Shown here piece by piece: positions 28,831-30,925 of a stretch of 39,640 nucleotides of DNA. Source of the DNA: Campylobacteraceae bacterium (lineage in GTDB: Bacteria > Campylobacterota > Campylobacteria > Campylobacterales > Sulfurovaceae). Below the pieces are notes generated by a model that saw only the letters and a program-made list of their open reading frames with translations, made no database searches and had not been told where the DNA came from. The position numbers were made by a program, and so were the translations under genes. Each line of letters begins with the position of its first letter. Within the stretch, counting starts at the first letter, position 1. The stretch lies in the NCBI GenBank assembly GCA_027055805.1, contig JALUMR010000050.1:1-39640 (forward strand). The letters run 5' to 3'.

Positions 28831-28860
28831 GTAGGGGCAGAGCAATGTCTCTACCTTTTT
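28831..28860 (+). terminator. Possible terminator after nusG
   Basis: GTAGGG...CTCTAC stem (one G-T wobble) followed by CTTTTTCTT. Confidence 0.4.
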
Positions 28861-29471: not shown

Positions 29472-30185
29472 ATGGCAAAGAAAGTAAATAAAAAAAGAGC
29501 AGCACTCTTAGAGAAAATAGAAATAGAGAAGAATTATGCTGTTGAAGAAGCAACATCACTTCTTAGCGAATTGAAATCAGCTAAGTTTGATGAGACCGTT
29601 GAGATTGCGTTGAACTTAAACGTTGACCCAAGACATGCAGATCAAATGCTTAGAGGTTCAGTAGTACTTCCAAATGGTACAGGTAAAGTTGTGAGAGTAG
29701 CAGTATTTGCAAAGGATGATAAGGCTGATGAAGCTAAAGCAGCAGGGGCTGATTTGGTTGGTGCTGATGATTTAATTGATGCAATTAAAGAGGGTAATAT
29801 TGATTTTGATACTGTTATCGCAACACCAAACATGATGGGAACACTTGGTAAAGTAGCTAGAATTTTAGGACCAAAAGGTTTAATGCCTAACCCTAAAACA
29901 GGTACTGTAACTATGGATGTGGCAAAAGCTGTTACAGAAGCTAAAGGTGGAAAAGTTAACTTTAGAACTGACAAAAAAGGTAATATTCATGCTGGAATTG
30001 GAAAAGTAAGTTTTGGTGCTGAGAAAATTTTAGAAAATTTAGAAACTTTTATTCAGACCATTAACAAGGTTAAACCAGCATCTGCTAAAGGTAGATACAT
30101 TACGAATGCTGCTATCTCTTTAACCATGAGTCCAGCAATAACACTTGATTCAAGTGAGCTTATGGATATGAAAGCAAAAGCTTAA
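29472..30185 (+). CDS. rplA: 50S ribosomal protein L1
   Basis: [33 protein letters not shown]...[16 protein letters not shown]. Confidence 0.98.
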
Positions 30186-30209
30186 GTCTAAAGCTTAGGG
30201 CATAAAGGA

Positions 30210-30267
30210 GAAAGGGGTAGCTAAAAGGGATTAGGTTTAAACCTGACCCCTTTTAGCTACCCCTTTC
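30210..30267. repeat. Long near-perfect palindrome 1 in the rplA-rplJ gap
   Basis: GAAAGGGGTAGCTAAAAGGG (30210-30229) is perfectly complementary to 30248-30267; centre AGGTTTAAACCT is itself palindromic; only one mismatch (30230/30247) and one G-T wobble over 58 nt. Confidence 0.97.
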
Positions 30268-30368
30268 AACCATACCTTTTTGTCTTTTCCTTTATGCTTG
30301 GCATAAACTAATCTAGATTGAAGATAATAGGGGCGAGAGCTTAATAGATAACTTTGAAAAAAGTTTGT

Positions 30369-30412
30369 TAATGAGATAGGGGTCAGACTTAAGTTTGACC
30401 CCTATCTCATTA
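30369..30412. repeat. Long near-perfect palindrome 2 in the rplA-rplJ gap
   Basis: TAATGAGATAGGGGTCA (30369-30385) is perfectly complementary to 30396-30412; centre gACTTAAGTt has one G-T wobble; 44 nt total. Confidence 0.97.
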
Positions 30413-30439
30413 CCCTTTTAGAAATCGAAAGGAGAACAA

Positions 30440-30925
30440 ATGACTAGAATTGAAAAAGAAGCTATTGTTAATGAACTCTCAACTGCTTTTGCTGATCAGG
30501 GTGCTGTAATCGTATGTGATTATAAAGGTATGACTGTTGAAGCATTAGAAGGTGTTCGTAACATGGCCAGAGAAAATGATGTACAAGTTCGTGTTGTAAA
30601 AAATACACTTGCAGGAATTGCACTTAAAAATGCCAACTGTGAAGAGATGGAACTTGTAGATACAAATATCTTTATTTGGGGTGAAGATCAAATTGCTACT
30701 TGTAAAGTAGCTGATAAATCTGCCGAAGCAAATAAAGATAATTTCTCAATCAAATCTGGAGTAATTGAGTCAAAAGTTGCAGATATCGCTACGATTAATG
30801 CAATGGCTAAACTTCCAGGTAGAGATGAACTTCTTGGTATGCTACTTAATGTTTGGAATGCACCAGTGCAGAACTTTACAATAGGTATGAGTGCACTTGC
30901 TACTAAATTAGAAGAAGAAGCGTAA
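30440..30925 (+). CDS. rplJ: 50S ribosomal protein L10
   Basis: MTRIEKEAIVNELSTAFADQGAVIVCDYKGMTVEALEGVRNMARENDVQVRVVKNTLAGIAL. Confidence 0.97.
   Translation: MTRIEKEAIVNELSTAFADQGAVIVCDYKGMTVEALEGVRNMARENDVQVRVVKNTLAGIALKNANCEEMELVDTNIFIWGEDQIATCKVADKSAEANKDNFSIKSGVIESKVADIATINAMAKLPGRDELLGMLLNVWNAPVQNFTIGMSALATKLEEEA

Follow-up and report, generated by a model that had tools for sequence, protein, structure and literature searches.

The rplA-rplJ gap and its palindromes

The window, that is, the whole 39,640-nt stretch of DNA analysed here, is contig C50 of a 1.8-Mb metagenome-assembled genome (MAG) that is 75% complete and whose nearest named relatives by the L10 protein are Sulfurovum-like Campylobacterota MAGs. 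The genomes compared are likewise mostly fragmented MAGs, and assembly can lose perfect palindromes. Two long palindromes lie between rplA and rplJ, in the following arrangement:

29472-30185, + strand: rplA (ribosomal protein L1), an open reading frame with a Pfam Ribosomal_L1 match (E=1e-69)
30199-30289, + strand: site 1, a conserved leader hairpin that precedes the L10 leader, defined by its AAAGCTTAG...CTTTATGCT frame and by folds in relatives
30210-30267, no strand: palindrome 1, 58 nt, capping the site-1 hairpin
30227-30250, no strand: core of palindrome 1, GGGATTAGGT-TTAA-ACCTGACCCC, the 'GT' variant with one half decayed
30290-30307, + strand: CTTTATGCTTGGCATAAA, a small conserved hairpin, also found in relatives with an empty site
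30308-30439, + strand: L10-type leader of rplJ, from the consensus fold of 23 relatives and the fold of the window
30369-30412, no strand: palindrome 2, 44 nt, corresponding to the P4 arm of the L10 leader plus 32 nt
30379-30402, no strand: core of palindrome 2, GGGGTCAGAC-TTAA-GTTTGACCCC, the 'AC' variant
30440-30925, + strand: rplJ (ribosomal protein L10), an open reading frame with a Pfam Ribosomal_L10 match (E=4e-18)

Both palindromes lie where the initial annotation had placed them, and the cores that it quoted are exact. The 29-nt arms of palindrome 1 are complementary at 27 of 29 positions, and since one of the two departures is a G-U pair in RNA, the single mismatch originally attributed to it is correct for the transcript; the 22-nt arms of palindrome 2 are complementary at 21 of 22, the exception being a G-T wobble. 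Both are far above chance expectation: their palindrome scores (23 and 19) are the two best in the window, where the next is 14, and no first-order Markov copy of it exceeds 12. The gap as a whole has a folding energy of -108.6 kcal/mol, compared with -58.8 +/- 4.5 in shuffled copies (z = -11). The shared core of 24 nt has two half variants, GGGGTCAGGT ('GT') and GGGGTCAGAC ('AC'), and its window copies are flanked by AAAA/TTTT and GATA/TATC. A consensus scan of the + strand of the gap detected no sigma-70 promoter and no terminator, an Rfam search returned nothing beyond weak sub-threshold microRNA-precursor matches of the kind that any long hairpin gives, and literature searches on the core sequence and on nested palindrome insertion turned up nothing pertinent.

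Palindrome 2 is the last arm of the L10 leader

rplJ is immediately preceded by a covarying multi-helix leader of the L10 type, composed of P1, P2 with a GAGA/GAAA loop, a conserved UUAAU, P3, P4, and the Shine-Dalgarno sequence AAAGGAG at 30428-30434. The consensus fold of 23 relatives in which the second site is empty comprises P1-P4, with double-sided changes in 13 of 23 pairs. In these relatives P2 is tiny (GC-GAAA-GC) and GCUUAAU is kept with its UUAAU unpaired, in agreement with the unpaired UAA needed in the L10 target (PMC4538822). Leaders with a short P4 are ~100 nt long; those of the window, L026, L029, L036, and L043 measure 132 nt, which means that the P4 tip has gained 32 nt. Palindrome 2 is thus P4 itself, the final arm of this leader in its extended form, and P1, P2, and P3 still form in the window, contrary to the suggestion that the palindromes might displace the leader. 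Double-sided changes affect 10 of 20 P4 pairs, a covariation that concerns the five 132-nt leaders only and a structure read from one of them; in the same five leaders the whole structure outscores 500 of 500 shuffles and all slid controls.

The leader resembles the L10(L12)4 autoregulatory leader (Rfam RF00557; B. subtilis, E. coli rplJL; PMC4538822) in its position upstream of rplJ, its multi-helix build, its conserved unpaired UUAAU, and its covarying stems, and differs from it in that the last arm exceeds 20 bp in part of one clade and that the Rfam model is blind to this lineage. The search with RF00557 that had been proposed gave no match in the window up to E=1, nor in 10 relatives up to 0.5, though an L10-type leader folds there. 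The rplJ leader is well conserved across loci L025-L060 and yet is missed by this model.

Palindrome 1 caps a second conserved hairpin

A hairpin between AAAGCTTAG and CTTTATGCT is present in every framed relative, and palindrome 1 caps it. The site is empty in L036, L041, L042, L043, L046, and L048, where a 6-7 bp stem closes a 4-nt loop. Elsewhere the tip inserts differ greatly, all of them being self-complementary: the core type occurs in L025, L026, L029, L032, L049, L050, and the window, with a paired-substitution variant in L037; full-length dimers of terminal inverted repeats (TIRs, see below) occur in L028, L040, and L045 (GAACGTAATC type) and in L044 (GATAACGATAGC type); and GTAG-type palindromes occur in L033 and L047. 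The tip in L039 holds ~100 nt of branched, structured sequence resembling none of these palindromes. The leader of L028 is like that of the L040/L045 lineage and its ribosomal proteins group with those of the window, which may reflect recombination or a chimeric contig.

Palindrome 1 is indeed bracketed by the GCATAAAGGA/TCCTTTATGC pair and by an imperfect direct repeat, which had been read as possible insertion scars. We rejected this reading, as CTTTATGCTTGGCATAAA and AAAGCTTAGG are conserved leader sequence belonging to the site-1 frame and are kept in species whose hairpin is empty. Comparison of the gap in sister species did reveal the empty sites that the initial annotation had sought, together with filled, nested, and decayed hairpins, but no support for scars.

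The core is confined to one operon

When as many as 3 mismatches are allowed, 13 core sites appear, spread over 8 of the 34 genus genomes. Twelve fall in the rplA-rplJ gap; the remaining one, in G016, lies in the interval separating rpmG from tRNA-Trp in the same operon. The core was found nowhere outside the secE...rplJ operon in 176 family genomes, and was absent from the other 399 of 400 sampled order genomes (at up to 2 mismatches) and from the viral contigs searched. The idea of a repeat family dispersed in this genome, which has two core copies in a single gap, is consequently not supported, and the outcome that had been named as its refutation, a core occurring only here with covarying arms kept at the locus, is what we observe, the core behaving as a locus-bound structure. 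The G016 copy has long complementary arms and lies just upstream of tRNA-Trp (L015/L153, G016:C194:5046-5069), where the window has a different hairpin.

A five-gene protein tree places all carriers in a single part of the genus, where species with an empty or decayed site are interspersed among them, and the core is absent or decayed in close relatives (L025 at site 2; L027, L030, L035, L036, and L043). Copies can be nested, as in L031 (GGGGTCAGTAAA[GGGGTCAGGTTTAAACCTGACCCC]TTTACTGACCCC) and similarly in L032/G016. Sites 1 and 2 of L026 have a 34-bp stretch in common, and L032 carries an identical core at sites 2 and 3. The site-1 outer arms of L049/L050 (GGGTAGAC...GTCTACCC), and less clearly those of the window, resemble the GTAG-type GGGGTAGACCGATGTGTCTACCC of L033, a matter of resemblance only.

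The core halves match the tips of TIRYT repeats

Inverted TIRs lie on both sides of ~256-aa Y1 genes in the genus and are of two main kinds, GGGGTCAGGTGAACGTAAT (L216-L218, L220) and GGG(G)TCAGACGTTGAATATC (L222, L244, L126). The first ten bases of these two kinds are identical to the two core-half variants GGGGTCAGGT and GGGGTCAGAC. Such TIRs, with TCAG tips, are found on both sides at 8 distinct loci (L216-L220, L222, L244, and L126). The proteins match Y1_Tnp above cut-off and, in some cases, a C-terminal HTH weakly and below cut-off; their genes match the TnpA-REP subclass 2.1 (PMC6006769). The connection extends to the leader itself: a BLAST search with the site-1 palindrome of L040 matched dispersed palindromes (GGGGWCAGGTGAACGTAATCGTACGATTACGTTCACCTGWCCCC) in G018, G022, and G025, genomes in which the long TIR dimer of GAACGTAATC type is dispersed, as well as the ends of Y1 transposase elements. 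To this extent the initial proposal, a family of small palindromic elements associated with Y1/RAYT-like transposases, is borne out, as the core halves match TIR tips of HTH-bearing Y1 genes and full-length TIR dimers fill the same hairpin in four relatives.

TIRs of TIRYT elements have the motif GGGGWSAS in common, and their families are of moderate abundance and often dimeric (Di Nocera 2013, PMC3733652). The elements described here are comparable to TIRYT/TIRtron (PMC3733652; subclass 2.1, PMC6006769) in having ends that begin with GGGGWCAG, in being inverted dimers, in the presence in the genus of a Y1 transposase with a weak C-terminal HTH match whose gene is bracketed by the same repeats, and in the dispersed dimers of congeners. 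Each window core has the GGGGWSAS end expected of a TIRYT dimer, exact at one half (GGGGTCAG) and with 1-2 changes at the other (GGGATTAG, GGGGTCAA); in relatives both halves are exact. Unlike TIRYT, the window core is cut to 10-nt tips around TTAA, is restricted to one operon, where it sits in leader hairpin tips, and is nested in relatives, and the TIRYT gene itself was not found in this 75%-complete assembly. Identity over the full ~20-nt TIR is therefore lacking in the window cores (~10 nt only) and is seen only in the site-1 elements of L028, L040, L044, and L045. The window's genome contains 15 GGGGTCAG sites, with palindromes at only two, both in this gap, and for the 24-nt core neither an adjoining transposase gene nor a dispersed set of copies was seen in any genome examined.

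In G022:C87 (L181 993, 1115, 1498) a TIRYT element is partly tandem-duplicated, with three left ends. In G027 (L118 1945, 2641, 3317) AGTTATCTATTTGGGGTCAGACMCC is directly repeated with a spacing of ~690 bp, and one AGTTATCTATTTGGGGTCAGACMCC-like site exists in the window's genome (L201, C11:1034).

Y1 genes of the window's genome and REP-like palindromes

The search for a RAYT/Y1 gene in the window's own genome, also proposed at the outset, yielded three Y1_Tnp loci. The REP-associated tyrosine transposase model hits two of these, one of them above cut-off, but in the fetched flanks the core lies beside none of the three. REP/REPIN sequences and their RAYTs (PMC3116915, PMC3686654) are likewise short, intergenic, Y1-linked palindromes, from which the window cores differ by having no 5' GT[A/G]G tag next to the hairpin, by their low number (two copies in one gap rather than high-copy dispersal), and by halves that match TIRYT ends and not REP sequences; they are not classical REP/REPINs. 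A separate REP-like family was observed on contig C205 (L009 2816-2880, 3472-3538), where a RAYT-like gene is bracketed by GGAGCATGGACTTTAGTCCATGCTCC-type palindromes. Between nusG and rplK, at 28831-28855, the window carries a GTAG-type REP-like hairpin (gtaggggcagagcaatgtctctacc), and the same gap in relatives holds different hairpins.

Origin and fate of the palindromes

Taken together, the two palindromes are probably reduced TIR dimers of the TIRYT (Y1/HuH) type, likely immobile by now and kept as extensions of leader hairpins. Each would consist of two TIR tips that meet head to head across a TTAA centre, and both are lodged in the tips of rplJ-leader hairpins, site 1 and P4. In the RNA, they would turn short hairpins into rods of more than 20 bp, the remainder of the leader being predicted to fold as in insert-free relatives; an insertion at the tip, by keeping the essential fold, would be tolerated and retained. 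Stems may later have been altered by compensatory substitution, with additional copies nesting in them in some species and decay setting in in others. Present immobility in the window's genome is suggested by the absence of a TIRYT gene from the 75%-complete assembly and by G016 (95% complete), which has three cores and no Y1 match at all. Candidate effects include cutting of the long duplex by RNase III or an altered L10 feedback.

Several observations count against a TIRYT origin: each core half matches the TIR over ~10 nt only, the TTAA centre is unaccounted for, and the two core variants could interconvert by paired substitutions. The core's lack of an adjoining transposase gene and of dispersed copies weighs in the same direction, as do the failure to find a TIRYT gene in the window's 75%-complete genome and the lack of any Y1 match in G016. 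The full-length dimers occupying the same hairpin in sister species would nevertheless make a chance match of the 10-nt core unlikely.

We regard as unlikely that the leader is a structure-guided landing site, in which a Y1 transposase would repeatedly insert repeat dimers into the hairpin tips of the operon, earlier insertions included, with new arms coming from mobile DNA and L10 control being kept. Flank complementarity is 2-20, mostly 5 or more, for the operon copies, and near nil for the dispersed long dimers (best score 0-5, nine copies), so that the dispersed family does not, as a rule, target hairpins. For the operon copies, either an insertion persists in so essential a leader only when placed at a tip, or the arms are a later growth.

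It is similarly improbable that the core hairpin, with its 10-bp stem and UUAA loop, is a signal peculiar to this operon, recognised by its sequence for binding or processing and employed there two or three times, whose likeness to transposon ends is incidental. Its restriction to the secE...rplJ operon, the third copy upstream of tRNA-Trp in G016, and a core better conserved than its arms, with covariation maintaining the stem, would all fit such a signal, but it is missing or decayed in the close relatives listed above, its place at site 1 is taken in sister species by full-length TIR dimers or GTAG-type palindromes, and known TIR tips match both of its variants. A purely operon-specific core unrelated to transposases was dropped once the site-1 palindrome of a relative had matched TIRs around Y1 genes.

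Quite doubtful, too, is that the hairpins grew and swapped tips by local copying, through template switching or gene conversion between nearby palindromes of the operon, without any transposase action on the core. All copies lie within ~2.4 kb of one another, and the stretch common to both sites of L026, the identical cores of L032, and the nesting in L031 and L032 are in line with such exchange, which nonetheless leaves unexplained both the TIR identity and the full-length TIR dimers that occur at site 1 and elsewhere in genomes. Finally, a classical RAYT-mobilised REP/REPIN, recently inserted and dispersed in this genome, is very improbable and for the core already largely refuted, since, despite the own-genome RAYT-like loci and the GTAG-type palindromes at site 1 of L033 and L047 and in the nusG-rplK gap of the window, the tag is absent, both copies are in one gap, and GGAGCATGGACTTTAGTCCATGCTCC, the sole palindrome family beside an own-genome Y1 gene, is unrelated to the core.

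Self-complementary inserts in the tips of functional RNA helices are known from the intervening sequences of 23S rRNA and from the double-hairpin elements of fungal mitochondria, which differ from the present palindromes in sequence and host. As reduced TIRYT dimers, the palindromes of this lineage, whose L10 leader is missed by Rfam, would provide a natural case of mobile palindromic DNA turned into an arm of an autoregulatory mRNA structure. The empty, filled, nested, and decayed states coexisting across close species would make it possible to examine by what steps regulatory RNA takes up mini-elements, and if Y1 elements have a preference for hairpin tips.
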